From contig JAIKXN010000080.1 in NCBI GenBank assembly GCA_024684055.1, positions 1 to 34,058 of the forward strand: a DNA stretch of 34,058 nucleotides, in the 5' to 3' direction. The notes beneath the pieces are model-generated. The model was not told where the DNA came from. It did not search any database and saw only the letters and a list, made by a program, of their open reading frames with translations. The stretch comes from Lachnospiraceae bacterium. GTDB taxonomy: Bacteria > Bacillota > Clostridia > Lachnospirales > Lachnospiraceae. A program made the position numbers and the translations under genes. Positions 6,536-25,552 of the stretch are shown here, in pieces; the stretch's first letter is position 1, and each line of letters opens with the position of its first letter.

Positions 6536-6559
6536 ATAAATATTTCGGAGACAGAGAAA

Positions 6560-7747: not shown

Positions 7748-7793
7748 AAAGCAGATAATTAAAGTATTTAGACTCTTTAGTACAAAGATAAAT

Positions 7794-7811
7794 AAGATTT
7801 TAGAAAATCTT
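7794..7811. repeat. Perfect inverted repeat in the malY-like / trans-sulfuration gap
   Basis: AAGATTTT-AG-AAAATCTT, two 8-base arms around 2 bases, inside a 177-base spacer that also carries three copies of CAAAGATAAA (7783, 7818, 7830). It could be a protein-binding dyad or just AT-rich symmetry. No promoter boxes are convincing around it, and there is no T tract after it. Confidence 0.5.
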
Positions 7812-7924
7812 TTAAAGCAAAGATAAATGCAAAGATAAACAGGCTTTTTGAAGCTTGATAAGTAAAGGAAAGCAGATCGATCATTAAGATTTGAAATAAA
7901 TAATAAACAAAAAAGAGGACGATA

Positions 7925-10261: not shown

Positions 10262-10284
10262 ATTATTTAAAAGAGGTGACTGAT

Positions 10285-11343
10285 ATGAAAAAAAACAAAT
10301 TTACGGCATTAACACTAATAGCGTCCATGGCTTTACTGTCGCTGACAGCCTGTAATCCGGGAAACGCTGAAACAGGTGCAAAACAATCAGACGGCGACGT
10401 GGACGTTGTCATCGGAACAGCCAACGGTTCTCTTTGCCTCGCTCCTTTACACATCGCCATCGACAACGGATATTTCGAAGAAGAATTCAAGGCAGCAGGC
10501 GTAACATGGAGGGTTGAGGAAATTGACTTAGGCAATATTTCAGAACTTGTTGCATCCGAAAAGATCGATGCTTCAACACAGCTTGCCGGAGCAATGATAC
10601 CCCAAATCGACAACGGACTTGAAATTGCATTTACTGCAGGTCTTCATACTGGATGTACAAAATATTACGTAAAAGACACATCCATCAAATCGGTAGCAGA
10701 TCTGAAAGGCAAAAAGATCGGCGTACCCGCAATCGGTGATTCATCCGTGATCGCATTAAAGAGAAAACTTTTTGATGAGGGAATCGGAGTAACCACAGAC
10801 AATCTCGAAGTTGAATGGGTTGTATACGCTTTGACCGATCTTCCTCTTGCTTTGGAAAACGGTGCAATTGATGTTGCGGCATTACACGATCCCGTTGCTT
10901 ACAGCGCAGAGCAGGAATACGGTTTCACGAAAATTCTTGACCTTAGTACCGATGAGAAGTTTGCAAACGAATACTGCTGCATGGCTTTTGTAACACAGAA
11001 ACTCGCAGATACGAATCCCAAAGCCGCTGCAGCATATACAAGAGCAATGCTTAAGGCCAGCGCTTTTGTTGAAGCAAATCCCAGAGAAGCAGCCAAAATT
11101 CAGCTGGATAACAATCAGTGTTCCGGCGATCTGGATGTAAACGCATCACTCCTTGAAAGCTATAATTACGGTCCTTCGGTAAGCATCGCATCAACTACGA
11201 TAAACGATGCGGCAACAGAACTTATCAGAATAGGCGAACTTAAAGCAGACGATCCGAAAGTCTTCATAGACAAGGCTTTCAAAACCTTCGAAGGAGTTCC
11301 CGATACTTTCGTATACAGTGACGGAAAATTCGAAGAAAAATAA
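10285..11343 (+). CDS. ABC importer substrate-binding lipoprotein (NMT1/SsuA-like)
   Basis: 352 residues, exported and lipid-anchored: a lysine-rich start, hydrophobic core and lipobox LTAC with lipidated C23. The mature part is a type II periplasmic-binding fold of the NMT1/THI5-SsuA group (GTANGSLCLAPLHIAIDNGYFEEE, split here as GTANGSLCLAPLH then IAIDNGYFEEE; later DLKGKKIGVPAIGDS and ALENGAIDVAALHDPVAYS). Such proteins bind sulfonates, taurine, nitrate or thiamine precursors. The surrounding cysteine and nitrogenase-like genes make an organosulfur ligand most likely (inference). ATG 10285 has AGAGGTGA 9 bases upstream. It begins a compact six-gene run that extends to 15370. Confidence 0.88.
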   Translation: MKKNKFTALTLIASMALLSLTACNPGNAETGAKQSDGDVDVVIGTANGSLCLAPLHIAIDNGYFEEEFKAAGVTWRVEEIDLGNISELVASEKIDASTQLAGAMIPQIDNGLEIAFTAGLHTGCTKYYVKDTSIKSVADLKGKKIGVPAIGDSSVIALKRKLFDEGIGVTTDNLEVEWVVYALTDLPLALENGAIDVAALHDPVAYSAEQEYGFTKILDLSTDEKFANEYCCMAFVTQKLADTNPKAAAAYTRAMLKASAFVEANPREAAKIQLDNNQCSGDLDVNASLLESYNYGPSVSIASTTINDAATELIRIGELKADDPKVFIDKAFKTFEGVPDTFVYSDGKFEEK

Positions 11344-11365
11344 TAAATGCTCAAAGAGGTAATAC

Positions 11366-12328
11366 ATGAAAAGTAAAGGACTTGCAGTATTGAAACTGTT
11401 TTTACCGTATCTGGCGATAGCCGTTTCATTACTGGTATATTTCCTGGTTCCCGGGAACGGAAAACAAAAACAGACAGATCATCCCTATTACGTATATTTT
11501 CTTTTAATCCTTGGAGTCGGTTTTCTCGTTTTCGCATTAGTGGGAATTTTTAATTCAAACATAAGAAAAACTGCCTTTGAGAAGGCTCCGTTTTTTACGG
11601 GAGTTATAATATTTCTTCTTTTTCTGAATTTTATTACGACCAAAACACTTCTTTTGCCGACACTTTATTTTCCGTCCCTGGACAGGATAATCGGTCTTAT
11701 TGTGGAAAATAAATGGTTCCTGTTAAAGAATGTTCTGGATTCGTTCGGACTCTTGGGGAAAGGGTTTTTGTGGGGCGTTTCGGTCGGTTTTCTGACCGGT
11801 CTGGCACTTGGTTATTCAAAGCATGTGGGATACTGGCTTACACCGGTTACCAAGGTGATCGGACCCATTCCCACAACGGCATGGATACCGCTTGCACTTT
11901 CAACATTTCCGACGACACAGTCCGCAAACGTTTTTCTTATCGCTTTTGCGGTATGGTTTCCGGTAACGCTTATGACCAGCAGCGGTATACAGTCGATCCC
12001 AAATGTAAACTTTGAGGTTTCCAAAACTCTTGGCGCCTCAACATTTTATCAGATAGTTCACGTTGCTATACCTGCAGCGATGCCAAGTATCTTTTTGGGA
12101 ATTTTTTACGGTACTGTTTCTTCTTTCGCCACATTAATGGCGGTTGAAATGAACGGTAATTCAAGCGGAATAGGATGGTATATCAACTGGCAGAAATCCG
12201 TAATGATGTATGACGGAGTTTATGCGGGACTTATCATTATAGCGGCTATATGTTCGCTTACTCTGACAATACTTTTCAAAGTGCGTGACAAGGTACTTGT
12301 ATGGCAGAAAGGAGTAATCAAATGGTAG
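11366..12328 (+). CDS. ABC importer permease (NitT/TauT/SsuC type) with N-terminal membrane extension
   Basis: 320 residues. The core (about 110-315) is a binding-protein-dependent permease with the cytoplasmic EAA-type loop around EVSKTLGASTFYQIVHVAIP and SIFLG, which docks on the ATPase. Unlike the roughly 250-residue SsuC/TauC proteins, it has about 80 extra N-terminal residues holding three hydrophobic stretches (near 8-28, 38-62 and 76-96). It therefore has more membrane spans than usual. AGAGGT precedes the ATG. The last 7 bases overlap the ATPase gene, typical of a tightly coupled transporter operon. Confidence 0.9.
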   Translation: MKSKGLAVLKLFLPYLAIAVSLLVYFLVPGNGKQKQTDHPYYVYFLLILGVGFLVFALVGIFNSNIRKTAFEKAPFFTGVIIFLLFLNFITTKTLLLPTLYFPSLDRIIGLIVENKWFLLKNVLDSFGLLGKGFLWGVSVGFLTGLALGYSKHVGYWLTPVTKVIGPIPTTAWIPLALSTFPTTQSANVFLIAFAVWFPVTLMTSSGIQSIPNVNFEVSKTLGASTFYQIVHVAIPAAMPSIFLGIFYGTVSSFATLMAVEMNGNSSGIGWYINWQKSVMMYDGVYAGLIIIAAICSLTLTILFKVRDKVLVWQKGVIKW

Positions 12329-13107
12329 GAGAGATCAGAATAGAAAATGTTTACAAGAGTTTCAAAAATTCCGATCCCGCCAAAGAGGATCTGGTTGCTC
12401 TGAACGGCTTTTCGCTTGATATAAAAGCCGGCTCTTTTGTAAGTCTTATCGGTCCGTCAGGCTGCGGAAAATCAACGCTTTTAAGAATCATAGGCGGACT
12501 TGATAAGGCGACGGAGGGGAAAATATTTGTTGATGACAAGGAAATAAAAAAGCCGGGAAGCGACAGAGGATTTGCTTTTCAGGGTTCGAATCTTTTCCCC
12601 TGGCTTACCGTTGAAAAGAATATCGCATTCGGCCTTAAAGCCAGACATATTTATAAGGATCACAAAAAGGATGTTGAGGAGTATATAAAGCTTGTCGGAC
12701 TGACGGGATTTGAAAAATCCTATCCGCATCAGCTCTCCGGCGGTATGCAGCAGCGTGCTTCGCTTGCCAGAGCGCTTGTCGGACATCCGAACGTACTTCT
12801 TCTTGATGAACCTCTCGGTGCGCTTGATGCATTCACGAGAATGAATCTTCAGGATGAAATACTCAATATCTGGAAAGAACATGACATGACGATGGTAATG
12901 GTCACTCACGACGTGGATGAGGCAATTTACATGTCGGATTATGTTGTAGTCATGTCAGCAAGACCTTCAAAAGTTGAAGCAATAATGAAAATAGATCTTC
13001 CCCGTCCGCGTGCGAGGGCTCAGGATACATTCCAGGAATATCGTACAAAGATTCTGAAAGTACTCGATCTCGGCGGAAAAGTGGAAGACATAGAATACTA
13101 CTTGTAA
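12322..13107 (+). CDS. ABC importer ATPase (NitT/TauT/SsuB type)
   Basis: 261 residues. Walker A GPSGCGKST, Q-loop FAFQGSNLFPWLTV, signature LSGGMQQRASLARAL, Walker B VLLLDEPLGALD and switch histidine VTHDVDEA are all intact. The FPWLTV and GALDAFTR wording is characteristic of the sulfonate/taurine/nitrate branch. ATG 12322 with AAGGAGT upstream is preferred to the in-frame ATG at 12301. It energises the permease it overlaps and most likely powers uptake of the ligand bound by the lipoprotein at 10285. Confidence 0.93.
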   Translation: MVGEIRIENVYKSFKNSDPAKEDLVALNGFSLDIKAGSFVSLIGPSGCGKSTLLRIIGGLDKATEGKIFVDDKEIKKPGSDRGFAFQGSNLFPWLTVEKNIAFGLKARHIYKDHKKDVEEYIKLVGLTGFEKSYPHQLSGGMQQRASLARALVGHPNVLLLDEPLGALDAFTRMNLQDEILNIWKEHDMTMVMVTHDVDEAIYMSDYVVVMSARPSKVEAIMKIDLPRPRARAQDTFQEYRTKILKVLDLGGKVEDIEYYL

Positions 13108-13120: not shown

Positions 13121-13528
13121 ATGAAAAACAGAATCGGATTTTCCATAGGATATATTTTGCTCGGAACACTGCTTATACTCATACCGACCGTAATTTTCCC
13201 GGTATGCGTAAGTGAAAAGAAAATGGCTTGTTTTTACACTGCAAGGGCAGAGATCGGTGTCGGCACGGTGATCATCCTGCTTGGACTGGCATACATATTT
13301 TTTAAATCAGCGGAAATCAGAGCGGGAATTTCTCTCTCGATCGCGATCAATTCGATATTGATCGTCCTTCTTCCGCTCAAGCTTACGGGACTTTGCAAAA
13401 TGAGCGATATGGCATGCAGGATCGGAACACTTCCGGCACTTATCGTTATAACAATTATAATTGCGGCAGTTTCGTTAGGTAACTTTGTATATATTCTGAT
13501 ATCTTCAAAATCAAAAAACAATGAATGA
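13121..13528 (+). CDS. DUF4418-family small membrane protein
   Basis: 135 residues with four predicted membrane helices (about 7-27, 45-61, 67-88, 104-127). It carries the pattern of the DUF4418 family: FPVC (C29) and MACFYTARAEIG (C37) in the first external loop and a second pair C92/C99 in the next loop. These four cysteines could form disulfides or a metal site on the outer face (inference). The family has no known biochemical function but is usually found beside FtsX-like permeases, as here. It overlaps the next gene by 8 bases and follows the importer ATPase by 13, so all are probably co-transcribed. Confidence 0.75.
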   Translation: MKNRIGFSIGYILLGTLLILIPTVIFPVCVSEKKMACFYTARAEIGVGTVIILLGLAYIFFKSAEIRAGISLSIAINSILIVLLPLKLTGLCKMSDMACRIGTLPALIVITIIIAAVSLGNFVYILISSKSKNNE

Positions 13529-14720
13529 TCTGAACGTATTTAAAAGAGCAAAAAGAAACATTAAACAGGTGTATCTTCTGATTACACCTGTTGTTTTACT
13601 CTCGATGGTTTTATTCGCATCTTTTGTGATCGATCTGAGTTTAAAACAGGGAGTAAGTAATCTTGAAAAAAGAATAGGTTCCGACTACATCTTAGTTCCC
13701 AAAGGGGCTAAAAATGATGCCGAAGACATAATTCTGGAGGGAGCAAGAGGGATTTTTTATTTTGACAGATCGGTATATGACGAAGTTAAAAACGTCGAGG
13801 GCGTAAAAGAAGCAACCGAGCAGTTTTTCCTTAAATCCATGGCTGCTGACTGCTGTTCAAGCGAGGTCGAAATAATATTTTACAATCCCGAAACGGATTT
13901 CCTTATCCACCCCTGGATAAGCAGCGAATACAAAAAAGCACAGGATAAAAACTGTGTAGTGACAGGAAGTTTCGTTAATGTCGAGGATAACGGAAATATA
14001 AAAATATTCGGCCGCGAATACAAGGTTGCCGCCAAAATGGCAAAGACCGGCACAAGCCTCGACAGTTCGATCTACTTTACATTTGATTCTCTTGATACCG
14101 TTCTGGCGGATGCAAGCGAAAAGGGATCGTTTATTACCGACGAACAGCAAAACGGAGATTTGATCTCATCTGTTTTTATCAATATTGAAGAGGGATACGA
14201 AGAAGGCGATGTTTTAAACAGGATCAAGACTTCGGTCAGCACGGATTACGATCTGGTCTTTTCGAAAGAACTCTCGAGACAGTTTTCCGACAATCTTTCG
14301 AACATTTACGAAGTTCTCCACATCATAAACATTTTCGCAATCATGTTTTTTGTTGCCATTGATTTCTGCGTCAACTGCATTGTCGTAAATTCCCAAAAAA
14401 CGGAAATAGCACTATACAGAATAATGGGGATCGACAAGAAAAGCATCATAAAGATACTTTTTGAAGATGCCCTTTTAACAAGTATTTTGGGAGGAACAGG
14501 CGGCTGTCTCTTATCGGCGCTTTTTACCGTTCCCTTCGGTGATTATATAGGAAACATGTTGGAAATGCCGTATCTCGGACCGGACTTTTTAAGGGTAACC
14601 CTTTTCATTGTACTGGTTACATTGCTGACGGTGGTCATAGGAATTCTCGGATCGCTTTATCCTATAATCGTTGTCTGTGTTCTGGATCCCTATACCGCTT
14701 TGAGAAAGGAGGGCGAGTAA
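13521..14720 (+). CDS. FtsX/MacB-like ABC permease with a CCS motif in the external domain
   Basis: 399 residues: one membrane helix near 18-40, a large external domain (about 41-265) and three C-terminal helices (about 268-292, 315-340, 357-386), the FtsX/LolE topology. The external domain has a double cysteine C111-C112 in a CCS context followed by FYNPETDFLIHPWI. I associate this pattern with ABC permeases found beside DUF4418-type proteins, including those near Campylobacter-style P19 iron systems. That association is from memory and should be tested. The ATPase gene begins at the last base of its stop codon. Substrate unknown; metal or thiol-related export is plausible. Confidence 0.75.
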   Translation: MNDLNVFKRAKRNIKQVYLLITPVVLLSMVLFASFVIDLSLKQGVSNLEKRIGSDYILVPKGAKNDAEDIILEGARGIFYFDRSVYDEVKNVEGVKEATEQFFLKSMAADCCSSEVEIIFYNPETDFLIHPWISSEYKKAQDKNCVVTGSFVNVEDNGNIKIFGREYKVAAKMAKTGTSLDSSIYFTFDSLDTVLADASEKGSFITDEQQNGDLISSVFINIEEGYEEGDVLNRIKTSVSTDYDLVFSKELSRQFSDNLSNIYEVLHIINIFAIMFFVAIDFCVNCIVVNSQKTEIALYRIMGIDKKSIIKILFEDALLTSILGGTGGCLLSALFTVPFGDYIGNMLEMPYLGPDFLRVTLFIVLVTLLTVVIGILGSLYPIIVVCVLDPYTALRKEGE

Positions 14721-15370
14721 TGCTTCTTGAAGTTAAAGGAATCGAAATGACTTATCCAAAAAGCGACAGGAAGATTTTCGAAAACATCTCGCTCGAGCTT
14801 GACGAAGGTTCTTTTACCGCGGTAACAGGTCCTTCCGGCAGCGGAAAGAGCACTTTTCTGGCGAATGCCGGCGGCTATCTTAAACCGACCGCCGGAAAAG
14901 TGATATTTGAAAATGAAGATCTTTATGAACTGAATGACAAAAGGATTTCCGAAATACATGCGAATTCGATAGGATATGTTCCTCAGAGCAACGCAATGTT
15001 CAAAAAGTTTAACGTACTCGAAAATATCCTGATGTATTCGGAACTGAAAGATGCCAAAGGATCATTTGAGGAAAAAAAGAAAAGAGCCGGGGAGATCGCA
15101 GAAAAATTAAAGATAGATTTTCTTCTTAAAAGATATCCGTATGAACTTTCGGGCGGAGAATTAAAAAGAGTTTCCATAGCAAGAGCGCTCATAAACAGCC
15201 CGAAAATCCTGATTGCGGATGAGCCGACCACAGGTCTTGACAGGGAAACGGGAAAAATAATCCTGGATTTTCTTTCGGATTACAGATCGGAAAAAAATGC
15301 CGTTTTACTGGCAACTCACGATGACGAAGTTCTTAAATATGCGGATAAAAACGTACATTTTAGGTTATAA
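14720..15370 (+). CDS. LolD/MacB-type ABC ATPase
   Basis: 216 residues. Walker A GPSGSGKSTF, Q-loop GYVPQSNAMF, signature LSGGELKRVSIARAL, Walker B ILIADEPTTGLD and ATHDDEVLKYAD are intact, matching the LolD/MacB group that pairs with FtsX-like permeases. The TAATG overlap with the upstream permease shows they form one transporter. It closes the operon; an imperfect hairpin (TAACC...GGTTA with GATAAA/TTTATC, about 15378-15407) follows but lacks a T tract, so some read-through into the next leader is possible. Confidence 0.9.
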   Translation: MLLEVKGIEMTYPKSDRKIFENISLELDEGSFTAVTGPSGSGKSTFLANAGGYLKPTAGKVIFENEDLYELNDKRISEIHANSIGYVPQSNAMFKKFNVLENILMYSELKDAKGSFEEKKKRAGEIAEKLKIDFLLKRYPYELSGGELKRVSIARALINSPKILIADEPTTGLDRETGKIILDFLSDYRSEKNAVLLATHDDEVLKYADKNVHFRL

Positions 15371-15473: not shown

Positions 15474-15501
15474 TTTTTCAGTTGAAAAGAGGACAGAAAA
15501 A

Positions 15502-15585
15502 ATGATCAGAAGAGCAAACTTCAAACAGAATACATGTATGTGTAAAACGATGTGTTCCTTATTAAGACATAAGGTTTGTTTTTGA
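15502..15585 (+). CDS. Cysteine-rich leader peptide (27 aa)
   Basis: A short frame with a good ribosome site (AGAGGA, 9 bases before ATG). It encodes 27 residues with cysteines at 12, 14, 18 and 26, all TGT codons, and ends in VCF-stop. Four Cys in 27 residues, directly in the leader of a cysteine-related operon and immediately before a terminator (15612-15641), is what a translational attenuator of the trp/his type looks like, with Cys-tRNA as the sensed molecule. The last Cys codon (15577-15579) is close enough to the stop for a stalled ribosome to cover the hairpin TACC-CTGA-GGTA at 15586-15597. No protein function is expected. Confidence 0.72.
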   Translation: MIRRANFKQNTCMCKTMCSLLRHKVCF

Positions 15586-15611
15586 TACCCTGAGGTAAAC
15601 TTTGAGTTTGT

Positions 15612-15641
15612 GCAGTTACCGAAAGGTGACTGCTTTTTTTT
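15612..15641 (+). terminator. Attenuator terminator downstream of the Cys leader peptide
   Basis: GCAGTTACC-GAAA-GGTGACTGC (9 bp, one T-G) followed by eight T. Upstream are two small competing hairpins, TACC-CTGA-GGTA (15586-15597) and AAACT-TTG-AGTTT (15597-15609). The stretch GGTAAACT (15594-15601) can instead pair with AGTTACC (15614-15620), with one bulged A, which would destroy the terminator. This gives a plausible terminator/antiterminator switch. Confidence 0.83.
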
Positions 15642-15778
15642 GAGAAAGATCAGATTGAAAATTTTTTGAAGTTTTAGCGTTACCCTTTTTACTTTTGATC
15701 AGGCAAAGCAAAACGACGGTAATGAACGGATATTCAGATCCGAAGATCGATCAAAACGAAAAAGGCAGAGGTTTAAAT

Positions 15779-15925
15779 ATGGCAGAGATAAAAAAAGATA
15801 TCAACGAAAACTACATTGAAGAAGTTAAAAAGGCATTGAAGGAAATAAAATACGGAAGCCTGACACTTATTATTCAGGACGGAAAAGTAATACAGATCGA
15901 TAAAACAGAAAAAGTCAGACTGTGA
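15779..15925 (+). CDS. yezD: YezD-family (DUF2292) small protein
   Basis: 48 residues matching the YezD/DUF2292 pattern: an amphipathic helix (ENYIEEVKKALKEIKYG) followed by a beta-hairpin LTLIIQDGKVIQIDKTEK. The biochemical role is unknown. In Bacillus, yezD belongs to the cysteine-responsive sulfur regulon, so its presence as the first gene here fits. ATG 15779 with AGAGGT upstream is chosen; an in-frame start at 15695 would add 28 unconserved residues. It lies 137 bases after the attenuator terminator and 5 bases before the tRNA-like RNA. Confidence 0.85.
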   Translation: MAEIKKDINENYIEEVKKALKEIKYGSLTLIIQDGKVIQIDKTEKVRL

Positions 15926-15930
15926 CTATT

Positions 15931-16000
15931 GATGCCGTGGCCGCTGGAAAGGCATAGGCGTGCAAAGCTGAAGTTGGCGGTTCGAGTCCGCCCGGTGTCG
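15931..16000 (+). tRNA. tRNA-Cys(GCA)-like RNA with degenerate features
   Basis: Folds as a cloverleaf: acceptor GATGCCG/CGGTGTC (7 bp, two wobbles), D-arm GCC/GGC with GG in the loop, anticodon stem TAGGC/GCTGA (one A-G mismatch, one wobble) with loop GTGCAAA giving anticodon GCA for cysteine, a 4-base variable loop, and a perfect T-arm GGCGG-TTCGAGT-CCGCC. Oddities: base 73 is G where cysteinyl-tRNA synthetase normally needs U, no CCA is encoded, and the A14 and R15 core positions are C and T. It lies inside the operon between yezD and nifB, an unusual place for a tRNA. It may be a functional minor tRNA-Cys, a regulatory tRNA mimic or a pseudogene. Confidence 0.66.
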
Positions 16001-16050
16001 CTTAAAACCAACGAAGAAAGGAGGGGGCTTAAGCTTTTAGGCGAGAAAAT

Positions 16051-16926
16051 ATGAGCAGTAATAATTATAAGGATTTGCAGAATTCCCATCCATGCTTTGG
16101 AGGACACAAAAACAATGCGGGAAGAATTCACCTTCCTGTGAGTCCGGGATGTAACATAGCCTGCCGGTTCTGTGACAGAACAATAAATGATGTGGAAGAA
16201 AGACCGGGAGTTACGTCCAAAGTATTAAAACCCGAAGAGGTTGAAGACATTTTAAGAAAGGCTCTCGACATATGTCCGGATATTAAAGTTGCCGGCATAG
16301 CGGGACCGGGAGATACGCTTGCATCGGACAATGCTCTGAAAACTTTCAGAATAGTAAAAGAAAAGTTTCCTGATCTCATTAAATGTATGAGTACAAACGG
16401 CCTTTTATTAGCGGAAAGAGCCGATGAGATCATAGATATAGGAATAGATTCGCTGACGGTTACGGTAAATGCGATCGATCCCGAGATCGAAAGCAGGCTC
16501 AATGCCTACATTATCTGGCACGGAGAGAAGATCGAAGGAGTCGAAGGTGCAAAGATACTCATTAAAAACCAGCTCGAGGGTATAAGAAAAGTTGCCGCCG
16601 CCGGAATCACGGTAAAGGTCAATACGGTTCTTGTTCCCGAGATAAACGGAGATCACATCGAAGATATCGCGAAGGCGGTAAAGGAAGCCGGGGCGAGCAT
16701 TTACAATATTATCCCCCTGATACCGCAGCACGAATTAAAGGACTGCAAAGCACCGGTTTGCGCGGAGATAGATGCGGCAAGAACGAAGGCGGGCAGGTAC
16801 ATAGATGTTTTCAGACACTGTCAGCACTGTCGCGCGGATGCGGTAGGCGTTCCCGGAAAATCCGAGTTCGGAGACCAAATCTACCAGCGAAGATTAAACA
16901 CAAAGGAGACATTTTCGCATGGCTGA
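16051..16926 (+). CDS. nifB: NifB-type radical SAM cofactor maturase (no NifX domain)
   Basis: 291 residues. NifB fuses two Fe-S units with a carbide and a sulfide to make the 8Fe precursor of nitrogenase cofactors. Seen: the N-terminal HPCF (C15), the radical SAM motif C34-x3-C38-x2-C41 (PGCNIACRFCDR), the GPGDTLA and STNG segments, and the C-terminal FRHCQHCRADAVG (C257, C260). These are NifB hallmarks not found in generic radical SAM proteins. The C-terminal NifX-like domain of many NifBs is absent, but a separate NifX gene overlaps by 8 bases. The strongest Shine-Dalgarno sequence (AAAGGAGGGGG, about 16016-16026) is some 25 bases from the ATG; a weaker GGCGAGA is closer. It implies that the NifDK-like pair carries a NifB-derived cofactor. 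Confidence 0.93.
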   Translation: MSSNNYKDLQNSHPCFGGHKNNAGRIHLPVSPGCNIACRFCDRTINDVEERPGVTSKVLKPEEVEDILRKALDICPDIKVAGIAGPGDTLASDNALKTFRIVKEKFPDLIKCMSTNGLLLAERADEIIDIGIDSLTVTVNAIDPEIESRLNAYIIWHGEKIEGVEGAKILIKNQLEGIRKVAAAGITVKVNTVLVPEINGDHIEDIAKAVKEAGASIYNIIPLIPQHELKDCKAPVCAEIDAARTKAGRYIDVFRHCQHCRADAVGVPGKSEFGDQIYQRRLNTKETFSHG

Positions 16927-17278
16927 TGAAAGAATACTTATCGCGGCAGCTTCCGATGACGGAATAAACGTAAACAGACATTTCGGGAAAGCGGAAAAGT
17001 TCTATATATACGAGAGCATCGATGATGAAATAAAATTTCTCGAAGTTCGAAACGTTTCTCCCGGATGCGGAGGATGCGGCAATCATAACGATTCAAAGAT
17101 CGAAGCCAATCTTGAAGCAATCAAAGACTGCAGTTATCTGTTAGTCGAAAGGATAGGAGAAAGATCGTCTCAGGCGGCTGAAAGCTTTGGAATAGAACCT
17201 TACGAGATTCCCGGAAACATCGAAGAGGGGATCGACAAGATGATAAGGTACATAAAAGTACAAAGGCTCTTTGACTGA
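16919..17278 (+). CDS. NifX/NafY-family iron-cluster-binding protein
   Basis: 119 residues of the NifX family, which binds and carries NifB-co and related Fe-S clusters. It has the family opening ILIAAASDDGINVNRHFGKAEKFYIYE, cut here to its parts: SDDGINVNRHFG (H21) and KFYIYE, then PGCGGCGNHND with C50 and C53, and GxxxEPYEI-like segments in the second half. It overlaps nifB by 8 bases, so a newly made cluster could pass directly from one to the other. The CxxC between the strands is common in the stand-alone members and may assist cluster binding (inference). Confidence 0.9.
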   Translation: MADERILIAAASDDGINVNRHFGKAEKFYIYESIDDEIKFLEVRNVSPGCGGCGNHNDSKIEANLEAIKDCSYLLVERIGERSSQAAESFGIEPYEIPGNIEEGIDKMIRYIKVQRLFD

Positions 17279-17299
17279 AAGATTAAAAAAGAGCAAAAG

Positions 17300-17377
17300 A
17301 CCCGGAAGCAAAGCTTAAAACAGAAACCCGGAAGCAAAACTTAAACAGAAAACCCGTAAGAAAATCTTTAAACGGAA
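17300..17377. repeat. 26-bp tandem repeat, 3 copies, between nifX and nifH-like genes
   Basis: Units start at 17300, 17326 and 17352 with ACCCGGAAGCAAA, ACCCGGAAGCAAA and ACCCGTAAGAAAA. The first two are nearly identical and the third has drifted. It is noncoding and fills most of the 189-base gap before the NifH-like gene. No promoter or terminator is clear there. Confidence 0.85.
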
Positions 17378-17413
17378 TAAAAACAGTTTATCCGAAAAGA
17401 TTTTTGCTTATAA

Positions 17414-18316
<903 letters not shown>

Positions 18317-18328
18317 TCAACAGATAAA

Positions 18329-18550
18329 GTCCGGTTCAAAAAAGAACGGAACAGGAAAAACAAAAACTATCCGGTTCAAAGGAAAAGACCGACAAAACAA
18401 AAAACAGAAATAACCCGGTTTAAAGAAAAAGGCCGGCAAAATAAAAACAATCCGGTTCAAAGAAAAAAGAATCGGCAGAAAAGAAAATAAAAAACACGAA
18501 AGCATAAAACACGAAAGCAAAAAAACACGAAAGCAAAAAAACACGAAAGC
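18329..18550. repeat. Two adjacent tandem-repeat families between nifH-like and synthase paralogue 2
   Basis: First, about four units of 36-45 bases that begin TCCGGTTCAAA or CCGGTTTAAA (near 18330, 18370, 18415, 18451), each followed by an A-rich tail. Then four units of ACACGAAAGC with A-rich tails at 18494, 18509, 18525 and 18541 (period 15-16). The 270-base gap holds no gene, promoter or clear terminator. A minus-strand frame through it is Phe/Ser/Cys-rich low complexity and is not a gene. Confidence 0.85.
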
Positions 18551-18586
18551 AAAAAACAATTTGATCAGAAAAGAAGGAGAGAAAAT

Positions 18587-19606
18587 ATGGGAAACATTCA
18601 TAATTCAATTACGGAACTTGTCGGAAATACACCTATCGTTGAATTTCACAGATTAAAAAAAGCTCTTGGATTAAAGGGACGCATCGCAGGCAAACTCGAA
18701 TATTTTAACCCCGCAGGATCGCATAAAGACCGTATGGCTCTTGAAATTATCGAAGCAGCAGAAAGACGCGGAGACATCAGTCCCGACAAAACAACGCTTG
18801 TTGAATTTACAAGCGGAAATACCGGTGTTGCAATGGCAGCTTTTGCCGCAGCCAAGGGATACAAATTCAAGATCGGTGTTCAGAACGGCGTATCAATCGA
18901 AAGAAGCAAACTTCTTGAAGCTTATCAGGCAGATATTGCAACGGATATTCCACAGGAACTGATCCTGGGTGTATTCGAAAAAGGTATCGCTGCATTTTCT
19001 GAAGTTATCGAATTTATGGAAAAAGGTGTTGAGAATCCTTATTCCACAAGACAGCTTGACAACCCCGACAACATCAATGCGCATTACAAACATACCGGAC
19101 CTGAGATCTGGAATGACACGGACGGAAAAGTTGATATCTTTGTAGGCGGCGTTGGTACCGGCGGTTCAACACACGGCGTAAGCAAATACTTAAAGGAAAA
19201 GAATCCCAACGTTAAGGTTGTAATTACCCAGCCCGACCCCAATGATGTTGTAAATCCCATTGTAAACGGTGTTGAAGACGGCGGATTCCACGGCATCCAT
19301 CAGGTTCATGATGACAACGGTATTACACCCATGGCTCCCGCCAACTTTAATGACGGACTGGTTGACGAATATCGTTTCATCTCATACGCAGAGACACTCA
19401 GAGCAATTCATCTTCTTGCAAAATACGAAGGTATTTTCGTAGGCGCTTCTTCAGGTGCATCTCTTGCAGTGGCGATCAAACTTGCACTTGAAAGCGAAAA
19501 CGAAGGCAAACTTATCATTCCTCTTCTTCCCGACAACGGTGAGAGATATCTTTCCGAAGATTTACAGAAGATCAGACCCGAAGTTGAGGAGAAAGTTGGA
19601 TTCTAA
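18587..19606 (+). CDS. Diverged cysteine synthase family PLP enzyme (paralogue 2), embedded in the nif-like operon
   Basis: 339 residues of the CysK/CBS fold. PLP lysine K47 is in NPAGSHKDRM (the usual Val before Lys is His46), and the substrate loop TSGNTG is at 75-80. The phosphate loop GVGTGGSTHG is near normal. The region where CysK has GIGAGFVPE is replaced by a longer segment with GGFHGIHQVHDDNG and TPMAPANF. This suggests an altered second-substrate site. GAAGGAG precedes the ATG, and 20 bases separate it from the NifD-like gene. Being placed between H and D, it probably consumes the sulfur product of the HDK enzyme directly (inference), perhaps a thiol or sulfide joined to an activated serine or homoserine. 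Confidence 0.87.
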   Translation: MGNIHNSITELVGNTPIVEFHRLKKALGLKGRIAGKLEYFNPAGSHKDRMALEIIEAAERRGDISPDKTTLVEFTSGNTGVAMAAFAAAKGYKFKIGVQNGVSIERSKLLEAYQADIATDIPQELILGVFEKGIAAFSEVIEFMEKGVENPYSTRQLDNPDNINAHYKHTGPEIWNDTDGKVDIFVGGVGTGGSTHGVSKYLKEKNPNVKVVITQPDPNDVVNPIVNGVEDGGFHGIHQVHDDNGITPMAPANFNDGLVDEYRFISYAETLRAIHLLAKYEGIFVGASSGASLAVAIKLALESENEGKLIIPLLPDNGERYLSEDLQKIRPEVEEKVGF

Positions 19607-19626
19607 AGCATAAAAGGAGCAAACAA

Positions 19627-21093
19627 ATGTCTGTAAATTTAAGCAATTCAAATGTTGCTACAAGAGAAAACCGAATCGGATCGATCACGGGATATGTAGG
19701 CACATTAAAAGATCTCGCTTCAAAGAGCGAATGCGGCACACTTAAAGGCTGCTCGAGATGTTTTTCGCAGTCGAGCACATGTCTTTCAACCTGTGGTTTA
19801 AGCCAGCTTGCGGCAATCCGTGATGTTGCGATAATCCATCACGGACCGGCGGGATGTTCGGTTGCCGGTGCTGCAACATATTATATGTCGAAAGTTATGC
19901 CCAAGAAGAGAGGTGTAACAAGCAACACCATTTATGTCGGAACAGACATGAACGAAAACGATACAATTTTCGGTTCAACAAAGGCTTTAAGGGAAATCAT
20001 CATTGAAGTAAACAAAAGATATTCACCCAAAGCAATTTTCGTATCGAGTTCCTGTGCGACGGGTATCATCGGTGAAGATATCGACAGTATAGTGGAAGAT
20101 GTCAGAAGCGAAATCGACGTTCCCATCGTTGCAGTTCACTGCGAGGGATTCAAGTCGAGAATCTGGGCGACGGGATTTGATATTTCCGACCACGCTATAA
20201 TGCAGGAAATCGTAAAACCTCCCAGAGAAGGTGTTAAAACAAATAAGATCAATTTCAAGAACTTTTTCGAAAGTGCACGTCCCGAGATCATCGAGATATT
20301 TAAAAACTTCGACCTTGAACCGGTATTTCTTTACTGCAACTCAACGATCGAAGAACTTTCACACTTATCCGAAAGCATTGCAACCACTTGTATCTGCGGA
20401 ACACTCGGAAACTATCTTGGAAACGCGCTTGAGGAAAAATACGGCGTACCCTATGTAAGAAGCATCAACCAGTGCGGTATCGCAGGATTTGAAGCCTGGC
20501 TTCGCGCAATAGGAAGAGCAACCGAAAGAAGCGAAAAGATCGAAAAATACATCGAAGAGCAGAGGGCGATTTACATTCCTCAGATCGAAGAAGTAAAGAA
20601 GGAATTAAAAGGCCTTACCGCAGTGCTCGGTATGGGACCCGGCTACACATTTGAAGTATCGAGAGTTCTTAACGAACTCGGGATCAAAGTTGTATGGGCT
20701 CTTGCATGGCACTACGACAAAAAATACGAGAACGGCGATGTGCCTCCTTCAATGAAATATCTTCTCGACAATGATATTGATTTTGAGGCAAGTGTTGCGG
20801 ACCAGCAGAACTACGAGGTTATGAATATTTTAAAGAAATATCAGCCCGATATGTATTTATCAAGACACCCCGGTTCAACCGTATGGGCTATTAAGAACGG
20901 AACACCCGCAATTTACGTAGCCGACGAATATATGATATTCGGTTACAAACACACATTGGAATTTGCAAAGACAATAGTTGACGCCATCAAGAACAGAAGC
21001 TTTGAAGAAAACCTCGCAAAGAGATCGAAACTTCCTTACACGGACTGGTGGTACAAGCAGGAAGTCAGCGCATTTCTTGAGGAGGCAAAATAA
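19627..21093 (+). CDS. NifD-like catalytic subunit (nitrogenase-like reductase, alpha)
   Basis: 488 residues. P-cluster ligands are present: C42 (KGCSRC), C77 (HHGPAGC) and C143 (SSSCATGIIGEDI). The cofactor cysteine aligns to C257, exactly 12 residues before EEKYG, as in nitrogenase alpha-C275. Residues needed for N2 reduction are not kept: by alignment to CEGF (172-175), alpha-Q191 becomes W180 and alpha-H195 becomes F184, and the cofactor His ligand (alpha-H442) falls on A432 in GTPAIYVADEY. The N-terminus is unusually Cys-rich (C36, C42, C45, C52, C56). It is therefore a nitrogenase-like enzyme for another substrate. Its stop codon is shared with the next start. Best analogy: the methylthio-alkane reductase alpha subunit, though the substrate is unproven. 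Confidence 0.9.
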   Translation: MSVNLSNSNVATRENRIGSITGYVGTLKDLASKSECGTLKGCSRCFSQSSTCLSTCGLSQLAAIRDVAIIHHGPAGCSVAGAATYYMSKVMPKKRGVTSNTIYVGTDMNENDTIFGSTKALREIIIEVNKRYSPKAIFVSSSCATGIIGEDIDSIVEDVRSEIDVPIVAVHCEGFKSRIWATGFDISDHAIMQEIVKPPREGVKTNKINFKNFFESARPEIIEIFKNFDLEPVFLYCNSTIEELSHLSESIATTCICGTLGNYLGNALEEKYGVPYVRSINQCGIAGFEAWLRAIGRATERSEKIEKYIEEQRAIYIPQIEEVKKELKGLTAVLGMGPGYTFEVSRVLNELGIKVVWALAWHYDKKYENGDVPPSMKYLLDNDIDFEASVADQQNYEVMNILKKYQPDMYLSRHPGSTVWAIKNGTPAIYVADEYMIFGYKHTLEFAKTIVDAIKNRSFEENLAKRSKLPYTDWWYKQEVSAFLEEAK

Positions 21094-22391
21094 TGGCTAA
21101 GTTACTTGATAAACAAAGATATAAATGCGCTCTCGGAGCAATGCAGACGGTTCAGGCAATCGAGCGTGCGCTTCCCGTTTTACATTCGGGACCCGGCTGT
21201 GCGCAGAAGCTTTCCGAATCCACGGGAAGTTCGGGATATTTTTCACCGAACATTTTCCCCTGTACCAGTATCAATGAAAAAGACGTTGTATTTGGCGGTG
21301 TAAAGAAACTTCGTTCCACCATCGACAATGCGCTTAAGGTTATAGATGCTGATCTTTACGTGGTTCTTACCGGATGTATTCCCGAAATCGTAGGTGATGA
21401 CTCGGGCGAAGTGGTTTCTGAATTTGCGGATGCGGATAAGCCCGTAATTTACGCTCCCACGGCCGGATTTAAGGGCAACAACTACAAAGGCCACGAGCAG
21501 GTGGTTGAAGCCATTATCGATCAGTATTTAAAGAAGTCCGACAAAAAGCAAAAAGGACTCGTAAACATCTGGGCAGACGTTCCTTATCAGGATCTGTTCT
21601 GGCTCGGAAACTTAAGAGAACTCGAAAATCTTGTCAGCGAACTCGGACTTACACCCAATACGATCTTCGGATACAAGAGAGGGATCGAAAATATCAAAAA
21701 GATTCCCGAGGCCGAATTCAATCTTCTTGTTTCACCCTGGGTCGGACTTTCAAACGTTAAGAAGATGGAAAAGAAATTCGGAACACCCTATCTTCATTTA
21801 AAGACTCTTCCCGTCGGCGCTACAGAGACCGGCAAATTCTTAAGGGAAGTCGGTAAATTTGCCGGAGTCGATGAAGCGAAAGTCGAAGCGGTTATCAAAG
21901 AACACGAGGATTATTACTACTACCTGATCGAAAGATATGCGGATCTTTTCCTTGAAAACCGTGTAATCAACAAGCAGTTTACGATCGTTGCGGATGCACA
22001 GTACACGCTCGGAATTACCAAATTCCTTGTAAACGATTTGGGACTTGTTCCCGCAACACAGTTTGTTGTGGACGATACACCTCAGAAATACAGAGAAGAG
22101 ATCGCAGAGGAATTTAAGAAACTCAACTTCGGTATCGAGGCAAACGTATCTTTCGAGACAGACGGTTTCAAGATCCACGAAGAGATCAAAGAACATGATT
22201 ATCACGGATATCCTCTGGTACTCGGCGGATATTACGAAAAAGAAGTTACGGAAAACCTTAAAGGAAACTTCCTTAACATCTCGTGGCCGGTACAGGATAA
22301 AGTGGTATTTGACAGAGCATATGTAGGCTATTCGGGCGGTATCAGACTGATCGAAGATATCTACACCGTAGCCGTACAGAGATTTAACTAA
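21093..22391 (+). CDS. NifK-like beta subunit of the nitrogenase-like reductase
   Basis: 432 residues, shorter than NifK (about 520) because the N-terminal extension is absent. The three P-cluster cysteines are intact: C12 (RYKCALGA, like NifK CQPLGA), C36 (HSGPGCAQ) and C95 (TGCIPEIVGDDS). The serine that also contacts the P-cluster in nitrogenase lies near APTAGFKGNNYKGH and appears to be replaced. The A-T-G start overlaps the alpha stop codon by one base, so equal amounts of both subunits are expected. With the alpha subunit it should form a heterotetramer with P-clusters and a cofactor in alpha. Confidence 0.9.
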   Translation: MAKLLDKQRYKCALGAMQTVQAIERALPVLHSGPGCAQKLSESTGSSGYFSPNIFPCTSINEKDVVFGGVKKLRSTIDNALKVIDADLYVVLTGCIPEIVGDDSGEVVSEFADADKPVIYAPTAGFKGNNYKGHEQVVEAIIDQYLKKSDKKQKGLVNIWADVPYQDLFWLGNLRELENLVSELGLTPNTIFGYKRGIENIKKIPEAEFNLLVSPWVGLSNVKKMEKKFGTPYLHLKTLPVGATETGKFLREVGKFAGVDEAKVEAVIKEHEDYYYYLIERYADLFLENRVINKQFTIVADAQYTLGITKFLVNDLGLVPATQFVVDDTPQKYREEIAEEFKKLNFGIEANVSFETDGFKIHEEIKEHDYHGYPLVLGGYYEKEVTENLKGNFLNISWPVQDKVVFDRAYVGYSGGIRLIEDIYTVAVQRFN

Positions 22392-22399
22392 GAGGAAAA

Positions 22400-22834
22400 A
22401 TGGGATACTTAATCGCAGTCGGATCATCGGATGAGATCAATGTCAATCTCAAATTCGGAGAGGCAGATGAAGTGCTGATCTACGAGGTTGAAGGTACCGA
22501 TTATTCGTTAAAAGAGAAAAGAAAACTGAATAAAGAAGCAAAACCGCAAGAAGCCGGGTCGGATAATGCATGTTCGTCCGATTCCTGCAGATCCTGCAGC
22601 TGCTCTGGCAGCGGACAGGGATGCAACGGCGGTTCCGATGCGGAGGAAAAGGTTCGTCTGATGGCAGACTGCAGATGTGTTCTGTTCAAAAAGGTCGGTT
22701 TTCAGGCACAAAAGCAGTTTGAAAAAAAGGCCATTTCAATATTTGACATCGAATGCGAAATAAGTGATGCATTTGAAAAGATTACGAAGTATTATGAGAA
22801 AGTAGATTCGCATTCATCTTTAAGAAACAGATGA
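22400..22834 (+). CDS. NifX-like protein with a cysteine-rich insertion
   Basis: 144 residues. The ends follow the NifX fold (YLIAVGSSDEINVNLKFGEADEVLIYEVEG split as SSDEINVNLKFG and DEVLIYEVEG), but the family His in HFG is Lys18. Residues about 50-83 form an acidic, flexible insert with five cysteines (C58, C63, C66, C68, C75) and CxC at 91-93. This looks like an added metal- or cluster-binding arm, perhaps a carrier or scaffold for the cofactor. It is 8 bases after the NifK-like gene and the last clear member of the operon. Family assignment is good; the role of the insert is inference. Confidence 0.83.
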   Translation: MGYLIAVGSSDEINVNLKFGEADEVLIYEVEGTDYSLKEKRKLNKEAKPQEAGSDNACSSDSCRSCSCSGSGQGCNGGSDAEEKVRLMADCRCVLFKKVGFQAQKQFEKKAISIFDIECEISDAFEKITKYYEKVDSHSSLRNR

Positions 22835-23450: not shown

Positions 23451-24383
23451 ATGGCAAAAATTTATAAAGGGGCATCAGAGCTTATAGGAAACACACCTCT
23501 TGTTGAGGTAGTAAATATTGAAAAGGAGTTCGGACTTAAGGCTACAATTCTTGTAAAACTTGAATACTTTAATCCCGCAGGAAGCGTTAAAGACCGTATT
23601 GCAAAAGCAATGATCGAGGACGCTGAGTCAAAGGGACTTCTTAAGGAAGGTTCGGTAATCATCGAGCCTACCAGCGGAAATACGGGTATCGGACTTGCAG
23701 CCATCGCAGCAGCCAAGGGATACAGGATCATTCTTACAATGCCCGAGACAATGAGTGTTGAAAGAAGAAACATTCTTAAAGAATACGGCGCTGAGATCGT
23801 TCTTACGGAAGGCGCAAAGGGTATGAAGGGTGCCATTGCAAAAGCAGACGAACTCGCAAAAGAGATTCCCGGAAGCTTTATTCCCGGACAGTTTGTTAAC
23901 CCTGCCAACCCTGCTATTCATAAAGCAACCACAGGTCCGGAAATCTGGAACGATACAGACGGAAAGCTTGATATCTTTATCGCAGGCGTAGGTACCGGCG
24001 GAACGGTTACAGGTACAGGAGAGTATCTCAAAGAGCAGAATCCCAACATCAAAGTTGTTGCTCTCGAGCCCGATTCATCACCCGTTCTTTCGGAAGGAAC
24101 AGCAGGTCCTCACAAGATTCAGGGTATCGGCGCAGGATTCGTTCCCGAAGTGCTTAATACAAAGGTTTATGATGAAGTATTCCGTGCAAAGAACGAAGAT
24201 GCTTTCGCAGCAGCAAAACTTCTTGCAAAGAAGGAAGGTATTTCCGTAGGAATCTCATCAGGTGCTGCACTTCACGGTGCGATCGAACTTGCAAAGAGAA
24301 GCGAGAATGAAGGCAAGGTTATCGTAGCTCTTCTTCCCGACAGCGGTGACAGATACTATTCAACTCCGCTTTTCACTGAATAG
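23451..24383 (+). CDS. cysK: Cysteine synthase (O-acetylserine sulfhydrylase A)
   Basis: 310 residues, canonical CysK length. Makes cysteine from O-acetylserine and sulfide. PLP lysine K47 in NPAGSVKDR, substrate loop TSGNTG at 74-79, phosphate loop GVGTGGTVTG, HKIQGIGAGFVPE and GISSGAAL all match the classical enzyme, unlike the two paralogues in this window. It has its own Rrf2-type operator/promoter and is closed by a terminator (24446). cysE downstream supplies O-acetylserine. It can bind CysE through the usual C-terminal contact, but the C-terminus of this CysE ends WYYII, so formation of a complex is plausible (inference). Confidence 0.95.
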   Translation: MAKIYKGASELIGNTPLVEVVNIEKEFGLKATILVKLEYFNPAGSVKDRIAKAMIEDAESKGLLKEGSVIIEPTSGNTGIGLAAIAAAKGYRIILTMPETMSVERRNILKEYGAEIVLTEGAKGMKGAIAKADELAKEIPGSFIPGQFVNPANPAIHKATTGPEIWNDTDGKLDIFIAGVGTGGTVTGTGEYLKEQNPNIKVVALEPDSSPVLSEGTAGPHKIQGIGAGFVPEVLNTKVYDEVFRAKNEDAFAAAKLLAKKEGISVGISSGAALHGAIELAKRSENEGKVIVALLPDSGDRYYSTPLFTE

Positions 24384-24489: not shown

Positions 24490-24592
24490 TTTTAAACATC
24501 ATTGTCCGTTTGCGGTCAGATTTAAGTCTGCAGCCTGATAATATATGTATTCCGGGGTGTTTCGGAAAATACAAACAGAATGGAAAAAGAAA

Positions 24593-25552
24593 ATGAGCAA
24601 AATAATTAAAGAAGAAGAAATAAACGAGATAGTTCAGAATATAATCGCCGACTTTGACGGTTCAAAAAACATTGATGCGGTCAATATTTTCAACAAACCC
24701 GACAAGGCCGAGGTCATAGATCTCGTCAACAACCTGATCCGTGTGATCTATCCCGGTTATTTCAGAGACAAATCATATAAGATCTACAATCCGAACAACT
24801 CTTTCGCAGTAAATATCGAAGATGCATTCTATCATCTGAACAAGCAGGTTACGCTTGCCCTTGAGTTCAGAAATTCGGAGAATTCCTTAAGCGATGAAGA
24901 GCGTGAGGAGGAAAGCTACAGAGTCTGCAAAACCTTTTTCCGAAGGATTCCCACAGTCAGGGAGTATATCGAAACAGACCTTCTTGCAACATATGACGGA
25001 GACCCCGCAGCAGGCAACTTCGATGAGATCATACTCGCATATCCCGGATTAAGGGCGATCACCGTATACCGGATTGCGCACGAACTTTACAAACTCAAAG
25101 TTCCCGTGCTTCCCAGACTTATGACGGAATATGCCCATTCGGAAACCGGAATCGACATTCATCCCGGAGCCGAAATTGACAAGTTTTTCTTTATCGATCA
25201 CGGAACCGGCATTGTTATCGGTGAGACTTCGATCATCGGTAAAAACGTAAAGATCTATCAGGGCGTTACCATCGGTGCGCTTTCAACAAGGGGCGGACAG
25301 AAGCTTTCCGGCAAGAAACGTCATCCGACCATTTGCGATAACGTAACCATTTATGCCAATGCTTCCATTCTTGGAGGCGACACTGTTATCGGTGAGAATA
25401 CGGTTATCGGCGGTAACTCTTTTATTACGAAATCAATCGACGCCAACACCAGAGTAAGCCAGAAGAACCTCGAGATGGAATACGCCGCAAGGGGCGAAAA
25501 ACATCACACCGAGGAAGTTAGTCAGGGCGAGGCCTGGTATTACATTATTTAA
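24593..25552 (+). CDS. cysE: Serine O-acetyltransferase (CysE/EpsC type)
   Basis: 319 residues from ATG 24593; a possible start at 24545 adds 16 residues with no better ribosome site. Makes O-acetylserine from serine and acetyl-CoA, the acceptor for CysK. The N-terminal helical part (about 1-170) is followed by the left-handed beta-helix with hexapeptide repeats: IDIHPGAEIDKFFFIDHGTG broken as DIHPGAEI and FFIDHGTGIVIGET, then GKNVKIYQGVTIGAL, CDNVTIYANASILGG and GENTVIGGNSFI. The long N-terminal type is common in Clostridia. It has no clear operator of the 3930 type; a T-rich region before it gives no convincing promoter. Confidence 0.93.
   Translation: MSKIIKEEEINEIVQNIIADFDGSKNIDAVNIFNKPDKAEVIDLVNNLIRVIYPGYFRDKSYKIYNPNNSFAVNIEDAFYHLNKQVTLALEFRNSENSLSDEEREEESYRVCKTFFRRIPTVREYIETDLLATYDGDPAAGNFDEIILAYPGLRAITVYRIAHELYKLKVPVLPRLMTEYAHSETGIDIHPGAEIDKFFFIDHGTGIVIGETSIIGKNVKIYQGVTIGALSTRGGQKLSGKKRHPTICDNVTIYANASILGGDTVIGENTVIGGNSFITKSIDANTRVSQKNLEMEYAARGEKHHTEEVSQGEAWYYII

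Follow-up and report, generated by a model that had tools for sequence, protein, structure and literature searches.

The operon described here lies on contig JAIKXN010000080.1 of a Lachnospiraceae bacterium (assembly GCA_024684055.1), within a stretch of 34,058 nt that was analysed as a whole and is referred to below as the window. In the reading favoured here, to which we give a probability of roughly 0.6, this is a cysteine-starvation operon arranged around a nitrogenase-like reductase of the methylthio-alkane reductase (MAR) type and equipped with a cysteine attenuator and a tRNA-Cys mimic. Judged by alignment and phylogeny, its NifDK is a MAR-type enzyme from a separate sister clade in which the pocket residue Cys73 is replaced; this clade is a new variant among the known nitrogenase-like sulfur enzymes, MAR and isethionate reductase (Isr). 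The enzyme probably pulls sulfur from organic molecules for cysteine synthesis, and a tRNA-Cys-like element in front of nifB may help to switch on sulfur genes when cysteine is short. Seven genes form a single run on the plus strand from 16051 to 22834 (nifB, nifX, nifH, a cysteine-synthase paralogue, nifD, nifK and a second nifX), and they and the features preceding them are as follows.

15502..15585, plus strand: Cys-rich leader peptide MIRRANFKQNTCMCKTMCSLLRHKVCF, with Cys codons at 15535, 15541, 15553 and 15577
15612..15633, plus strand: intrinsic terminator stem and T tract directly after the leader peptide (terminator prediction)
15779..15925, plus strand: YezD/DUF2292 small protein (Pfam PF10055, 69.6 bits)
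15931..16001, plus strand: tRNA-Cys-like element with GCA anticodon and G73, CCA not encoded (ARAGORN, Rfam, covariance model R1 94 bits)
16051..16926, plus strand: NifB/MarB-like radical SAM protein without a fused NifX domain (NCBIfam, motifs)
16919..17278, plus strand: NifX-type cluster-binding protein 1 (family match)
17468..18316, plus strand: NifH/MarH-like reductase (NCBIfam, residues)
18587..19606, plus strand: cysteine-synthase paralogue, pyridoxal-phosphate (PLP) Lys present, SHKDR (family match)
19627..21093, plus strand: NifD/MarD-like catalytic subunit with ligands C257 and H414 and residues R413, W180 and H362 (PDB search, alignment, tree)
21093..22391, plus strand: NifK/MarK-like subunit (PDB search, alignment)
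22400..22834, plus strand: NifX-type protein 2 (family match)

An earlier sequence-only reading of this stretch had proposed an operon of NifB, NifX, NifH, D and K proteins with an embedded cysteine synthase, and each gene is present where it was placed, with the motifs that were named. NifH carries C97, R100 and C132 and scores 465 bits, above the NCBIfam cut-off for the NifH equivalog. NifB contains HPC, C34xxxC38xxC41 and a C-terminal HCQHC at C257/C260, and all six P-cluster cysteines are found in the catalytic pair (C52, C77 and C143 in D; C12, C36 and C95 in K). The family scores of NifB, both NifX proteins, D, K and the cysteine-synthase paralogue stay under the curated NCBIfam cut-offs, that of the paralogue being 267 bits against a cysKM cut-off of 344. 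The operon was said to begin at 15931, which is the first base of the tRNA-Cys-like element, but the element itself is absent from that text, which is silent on the Cys-rich leader, the terminator and the DUF2292 protein as well. This last protein weakly resembles the sulfur-starvation protein OscA (NF033785, 31 bits; cut-off 85).

Comparison with PDB sequences places the catalytic subunits near MAR. D matched 9fmg (E 3.6e-87) and 9d9u (E 2.1e-86), with nitrogenases appearing only from 1.4e-34, while K matched 9d9u/9fmg at 1.6e-115, with a nitrogenase next at 1.5e-27; bit scores against 9fmg/9d9u were 296 (D) and 390 (K), and those of the next-best structure 123 (D) and 100 (K). According to PMC12552129, 9FMG, whose PDB listing name is "Nitrogenase", is MAR, its [Fe8S9C] cluster is held by Cys270 and His429, and Arg428 is a possible hallmark. 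Identity to MarD is 34% (D) and to MarK 42% (K). The equivalents of Cys270, His429 and Arg428 in the window's D are C257, H414 and R413, and MarD residues C66, C91, C158, C270, R428, H429, W195, F199 and H375 are all retained, with Trp195, Phe199 and His375 represented by W180, F184 and H362. Two other MarD positions differ: Cys73 has become S59 and His194 has become I179, and isoleucine or valine also occupies position 194 in five rows of the Mar clade.

A tree of 37 D-type proteins was built from the window, 11 close loci, one characterised MarD and other rows, with BchN, CfbD and Nfa outside its scope. The window and the 11 close loci fall inside a 19-row clade (support 100/99) that is the sister of a 7-row clade containing MarD (97/95), and the two join at 94/96; in this tree with its one characterised MarD, the window's D lies outside the characterised-MarD clade. 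All 26 rows of the two clades keep three P-cluster cysteines, Cys270, Arg428, His429, Trp195 and His375, and 25 keep Phe199. Position 73 separates them: it is cysteine in 6/7 Mar rows and in 0/19 rows of the window clade (G, S, N or D). The NifD, NifE, Isr-like and D-prime rows, and two D-type rows from L007, stand outside both clades on long branches that leave their order unsure. The proposal of a DK pair akin to MAR yet distinct from it is thereby upheld; the phylogenetic comparison suggested with it separates the window from NifD/NifE and the Isr-like rows, BchN and CfbD lying beyond its range.

It is unlikely that the DK pair is a true MAR acting on MAR substrates (dimethyl sulfide, methylthio-ethanol). 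The cluster ligands and the Arg-His hallmark do match, and an O-acetylhomoserine sulfhydrylase gene is present in a Treponema plasmid cluster described below; against this, the clade is separate, Cys73 is replaced throughout its 19 rows, and the usual neighbour of D is cysteine synthase (69/79 loci). About equally unlikely is a sulfonate reductase convergent with Isr, in which the importer would supply a sulfonate and sulfite would be freed. An Ssu-type importer is encoded upstream in the window, and Isr operates with SsuCAB according to PMC11423573, but the same source describes an IsrD without the P-cluster set and cofactor Cys, both kept in the window; the Isr signature (a single P-cluster Cys in D, cofactor Cys absent) is not found in the window's D, and metK operons within this bacterial family (L174 and L175) encode a different enzyme, Isr-like by its residues. 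A Group IV N2-fixing nitrogenase is very improbable: P-cluster and cofactor cysteines are present, and one such claim, for Endomicrobium, stands behind Nfa in PMC11423573 (known from a reference title), but cysteine genes surround the pair, and MAR hallmark residues (Trp180, Phe184 and an Arg-His loop) replace the His442 loop and Gln191/His195 of nitrogenase NifD, in a comparison whose tree had no Nfa row.

Other D-type proteins occur near these systems. The window's own genome contains, on contig C174 (L007 7751-14476), a second nitrogenase-like cluster of the order H-D-K-H-D-K, far removed in sequence from the DK pair of the window. In several loci (L043 8650-11386, L046 14574-17286, L050 13312-16039 and others) the operon is followed by a D-prime/K-prime pair, which replaces D-K in L199. 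In the five rows examined, D-prime keeps the P-cluster cysteines and Cys270, has lost the Arg-His loop and has Cys in place of Trp195; the pair may serve as a scaffold or be another reductase.

The gene arrangement recurs among relatives. A scan confirmed 248 places, of which the best 80 were kept, with D 84-96% identical; they belong mainly to Lachnospiraceae and unplaced Clostridia, and to Bacteroidales/Paludibacteraceae, Treponema and Saccharofermentans, and many are labelled as rumen organisms. The host had earlier been called a Clostridium, a label that finds no support, its nearest named relatives being Lachnospiraceae. With a threshold of E 1e-60, relatives of D turned up in 44 of 392 genomes of the order, the window's own included. 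Conservation of gene order, which the sequence-only reading had proposed as a check, is evident among the best 80 relatives: K is directly 3' of D in 78/78 testable loci, 69/79 have a cysteine synthase no more than 700 nt 5' of D, confirming the paralogue between H and D as a frequent partner, and in 61/73 the distance from D to a NifH on its 5' side is at most 1.8 kb. This gene association is not due to chance. Among the loci listed, one arrangement often seen starts with [lysR, ssu importer, ftsX, abc]-cysK-(yezD)-nifB-nifX-nifH and continues with cysK paralogue-nifD-nifK-nifX and then metB/patB-type genes; in the Bacteroidales loci viewed, nifB and nifH are outside the fetched stretch. A second, distant D is present in 26/80 loci. 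The cysK adjacent to D is of two kinds that are 43% identical, one with SHKDR (window, L038, Treponema L108) and the other with NQSVKDR (L043, Bacteroidales L095), which suggests that cysteine synthase was recruited to this position more than once. A relative of the system is carried by Treponema saccharophilum plasmid pTS2 (L209), with two DK pairs, an O-acetylhomoserine sulfhydrylase and cysK, together with a radical SAM protein, nifX, nifH, LysR and an ABC (ATP-binding cassette) importer.

The element at 15931 is called tRNA-Cys by ARAGORN, which places a tRNA-Cys directly 5' of nifB in many loci, and scores 35.3 bits with the Rfam tRNA model (gathering score 29). Under covariance model R1, built from 27 copies, the window and 26 of the 80 loci have a match of 93-102 bits, and no other place in them exceeds 47 bits. 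It is found 5' of nifB in 26 of the 61 loci with a readable plus-strand nifB (three of the 61 have <300 nt 5' of nifB), at 26-142 nt from the nifB start. The comparison set comprises 42 copies, 39 of them distinct. Two named strains have the element, [Clostridium] polysaccharolyticum DSM 1801 (L054) and Eubacterium ruminantium ATCC 17233 (L083). The D stem, the T loop and much of the variable region are almost invariant. In the model-fitted alignment, standard pairs fill 99.9% of cells and 9 of 19 pairs have changed on both sides, a result matched by 0/500 shuffles and abolished by sliding the pair partners; an unfitted MAFFT alignment of the 27 copies has 5/19 such pairs (0/500 shuffles). The cloverleaf shape is retained through compensatory changes.

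In its identity positions the element departs from ordinary tRNA-Cys. Cysteinyl-tRNA synthetase (CysRS) requires U73 as an identity base of tRNA-Cys. Among the 42 copies, base 73 is A in 23, G in 19 and U in none, and an A28-G42 mismatch is constant. The triplet is GCA in 40 copies and ACA in two; 30 copies have U33 and eight have C33, and in the other four (L174-L177) a GGCA tetraloop closes the anticodon arm. In the window's copy the anticodon loop is 7 nt long and contains both U33 and GCA. Ordinary tRNA-Cys genes, by script, have U73 in 34/37 cases, G in two and A in one; of these three, L145 has T on inspection, and L116 has A in a 7-bp GGTGTCA acceptor register. A separate U73 tRNA-Cys is present in 15/15 genomes tested (13 with the element, two with its kin) and in the window's own genome, where R1 scores the single element copy at 94 bits and the ordinary tRNA-Cys at 42. 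The retained tRNA core and GCA/ACA triplet, combined with the complete avoidance of U73, lead us to infer a tRNA-Cys mimic. No earlier description of such an element was found in the open-licence papers searched.

The distribution of the element follows sulfur metabolism. Genome draws scored by R1 comprised 392 genomes of the order, 397 of the family and 398 of the phylum. The order draw gave nine genomes with at least 70 bits, the other 28 listed being at 53-58; the family draw gave 16 with at least 92 bits and one at 62; in the phylum draw the window's own genome scored 94 bits and all others at most 56. Since the order and family draws share three genomes, the window's own included, 22 element-bearing genomes result, and in 22/22 the element adjoins a sulfur gene (nif, cysK, metK or Ssu-type importers). 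It stands 5' of the nifB of a window-type operon in 11, with a YezD open reading frame (ORF) in nine (G322 via L043, identical coordinates), and in L199 it accompanies nifB-nifX-nifH-cysK with the D-prime/K-prime pair. Five genomes (L172, L174-L177) have an element-yezD-metK arrangement with an Isr-like nifHDK or an Ssu-type importer. Contexts seen in single genomes are element-metK-ssuCB (L203) and element-cysK (L202), and the element is near Ssu-type importers in L173 and L204. In L196 it is 3' of cysK with no recognised sulfur gene downstream; in both L173 and L196 it is behind the sulfur genes, not in front of them. An S-adenosylmethionine (SAM) riboswitch 5' of the metK-type operons was ruled out, only tRNA matching above the Rfam gathering score in L172-L177.

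Three further purine-73 tRNA-Cys sequences, closer to the normal form, also occur 5' of sulfur genes. By reading, the genes concerned were named as a cystine-type importer (L210) and a NifS-type desulfurase (L116). The third, in L205 (286-5958), precedes JAMM, ThiF-rhodanese and encapsulin-like genes, with a SulP-type transporter upstream; as its genes were named by reading, this set is a possible sulfur-storage operon.

Upstream of the element, sequence features suggest attenuation. The region 15300-16100 of the window contains two terminator-like sites, against a shuffle mean of 0.7 (standard deviation 0.8). A Cys-rich ORF lies within 450 nt 5' of the operon head in 15 of 56 loci, whereas shuffled sequences have one in 1.1% of cases and random stretches in 29/1114; the other 24 of the 80 loci had no plus-strand nifB or short upstream sequence, and in L043 and L051 a leader is visible that the rule leaves uncounted. 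The flanks of 41 copies were scored, one of the 42 having too short a flank. Of these, 23 have a T-run no more than 70 nt upstream of the element (background 11%), 21 have a CTGACYGG-type motif up to 260 nt upstream (background 2.4%), and 30 have a YezD-type ORF beside it. In metK-type operons a short ORF such as MRHILKSENCCCMNMCMCRML... comes first, followed by a terminator whose U-run touches the element. The window's leader and terminator are read here as a putative cysteine-starvation attenuator; since the leader is rich in Cys codons and lies 5' of the terminator, stalled ribosomes should permit read-through. A conserved ACTGACTGG...CCAGAGGTTT hairpin overlaps the terminator just 5' of the element (L043 upstream of 1598, its relatives, L210 and L116) and looks like a second attenuator. 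Rfam matches to the ACTGACTGGAAAGACCAGAGG hairpin/terminator 5' of the element were weak, all of them below gathering scores.

In the cysteine-starvation operon proposed here, NifB would build an [Fe8S9C]-type cluster, NifX would pass it on and NifH would supply electrons using ATP. An organosulfur compound would enter through the Ssu-type importer, NifDK would reductively cleave one of its C-S bonds, and the adjacent cysteine-synthase paralogue would couple the freed sulfide or thiol to O-acetylserine. A shortage of Cys-tRNA would stall the ribosome on the leader and let transcription pass the terminator, and the RNA would then carry the tRNA-Cys-like element ahead of the first nif gene. As a mimic of tRNA-Cys, the element would be bound by CysRS and hardly charged, and could act as a starvation sensor or operator on Lachnospiraceae sulfur operons. 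More tentatively, at somewhat less than even odds, there may be a Lachnospiraceae family of non-decoding tRNA-Cys mimics that reports or imposes the uncharged tRNA-Cys state via CysRS or another partner. Its targets, with the same reserve, would be mRNAs for nitrogenase-like C-S reductases, metK, cysK and sulfur importers, and its kin, put forward no more firmly, would serve the cysteine desulfurase and the sulfur-carrier/encapsulin-like set.

Several observations weigh against this account. By the rule used, 41/56 loci have no Cys-rich leader. Folds of the window from stalled positions still form the terminator, with no clear antiterminator, and the window and L038 do not have the second attenuator motif seen 5' of the element in 21/41 copies. 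The element is missing from 35/61 nifB loci, so the enzyme is independent of it. In folding, the window's copy does not stand out from its shuffles (z -0.22), its minimum-free-energy structure is not a cloverleaf, and with GCA in 40/42 copies and U33 in 30/42, the window included, decoding is conceivable for most copies. No cysteine synthase stands just 5' of D in 10/79 testable loci. An SsuA-type protein lies within the fetched stretch in only 22/80 loci, with 11 at 60% identity or more to that of the window and 11 below 60%, so the importer is not the constant, dedicated partner that had been supposed.

Of the other explanations for the element, the one that survives best, although rather unlikely, is a processing signal only: excision by RNase P/RNase Z would free the operon mRNA and set its 5' end. 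The intact acceptor and T arms with their compensatory changes fit it, as does the placement of many copies between a terminator and the first gene, with the T-run excess given above. It leaves unexplained both the absence of U73 and the retention of GCA/ACA, even in the tetraloop, a combination that speaks more for a partner specific to tRNA-Cys than for a simple RNase P site. Still less likely is a genuine extra tRNA-Cys, co-transcribed so as to boost Cys decoding when sulfur operons are induced. Both ARAGORN and Rfam call the element a tRNA, its triplets and frequent U33 are suitable (ACA still fits UGU), and the missing CCA was dropped as an argument against tRNA function, the host's ordinary tRNA-Cys likewise having none encoded. 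Opposed to this are the purine at position 73 in 42/42 copies, where CysRS wants U73, the constant A28-G42 mismatch, C33 in eight copies, the GGCA tetraloop in four, and the U73 tRNA-Cys also present in every genome tested.

Two further candidates were rejected. The element could be imagined as a permanently uncharged T-box ligand, but the window has no match to RF00230 (T-box) at gathering score, and pairing with a specifier codon would hardly be feasible for the GGCA-tetraloop copies. The window's own genome has seven RF00230 matches, three above the cut-off, with the T-box motif readable in four of the seven; by eye, the ORFs 3' of them are not obviously cysteine genes. For tRNA-dependent cysteine synthesis, no SepCysS scored above the cut-off in the own genome, the best match being 37.8 bits near the window's end.

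The proposed operon shares parts with several known systems. MarBHDK of Rhodospirillum rubrum, as described in PMC12552129, resembles it in having a NifB-type maturase, H and a DK pair with six P-cluster cysteines, in the cofactor residues Cys270 and His429 with Arg428, Trp195 and His375, and in oxygen-free sulfur scavenging. The window differs in its sister-clade DK, at the identities given above, with Cys73 replaced, in its separate NifX proteins, in the cysteine synthase between H and D, and in its Cys leader, DUF2292 protein and tRNA-like element. IsrBHDK of Rhodobacter capsulatus likewise combines a nitrogenase-like sulfur enzyme with an Ssu importer, but according to PMC11423573 its IsrD retains a single P-cluster Cys and lacks the cofactor Cys, and its IsrB is not NifB-like; the enzymes that are Isr-like by residues in the window's own bacterial family belong to metK operons bearing the same tRNA-like element (L174-L176). 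As in trp-type attenuation, a short ORF with codons for the end product precedes a terminator; unlike that case, the leader is combined with a tRNA-shaped element, the operons being nitrogenase-like or metK ones, and the antiterminator is putative. Polycysteine leaders exist in mycobacteria. In the T-box-Cys systems of Clostridium, transcription termination at cysteine genes follows tRNA-Cys charging (PMC2940859); by contrast, the window has its tRNA-shaped RNA in cis, inside the operon, and no gathering-score T-box. Genes for tRNA-Cys are known in SepRS/SepCysS operons, beside sulfur genes (PMC5424206), but the window's own genome, with no SepCysS above the cut-off, has an ordinary CysRS.

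These findings add a second lineage of [Fe8S9C]-type C-S reductases, many members of which are rumen or gut anaerobes, tied to cysteine and not methionine, and they point to a possible regulatory layer masked by the annotation name "tRNA-Cys". If the element is indeed a mimic, what a gene caller reports as an ordinary tRNA would be a switch, and sulfur scavenging in the gut would be linked to tRNA-Cys charging.

The operon is flanked by further genes of sulfur metabolism, and family searches bear out the LysR regulator, importer and PLP sulfur enzymes that had been assigned upstream.

5531..9073, plus strand: cysteine-synthase-like protein, PatB-type C-S lyase and cystathionine gamma-lyase/synthase family protein (family search)
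9092..9997, plus strand: LysR-type regulator (Pfam HTH_1 and LysR_substrate)
10276..13107, plus strand: SsuA/SsuC/SsuB-type ABC importer, comprising NMT1-like binding protein, permease and ATPase (family search)
13121..15370, plus strand: DUF4418 membrane protein, FtsX-type permease and ABC ATPase (Pfam), also upstream in a number of relatives
23451..24383, plus strand: cysteine synthase A (452 bits, above cut-off), with a counterpart 5' of nifB in many relatives
24545..25552, plus strand: serine O-acetyltransferase-type protein (family search)

Within the operon, A-rich tandem repeats at 17300-17377, 18356-18447 and 18489-18556 lie in the spacers 5' of nifH and of the cysteine-synthase paralogue. 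Upstream of the cysteine genes, a LanC-like protein is encoded at 3976-5391 (Pfam, 88.8 bits), and on the minus strand at 26979-28555 a rhodanese fused to a TtcA-like tRNA thiolase adjoins an Rrf2-type regulator.

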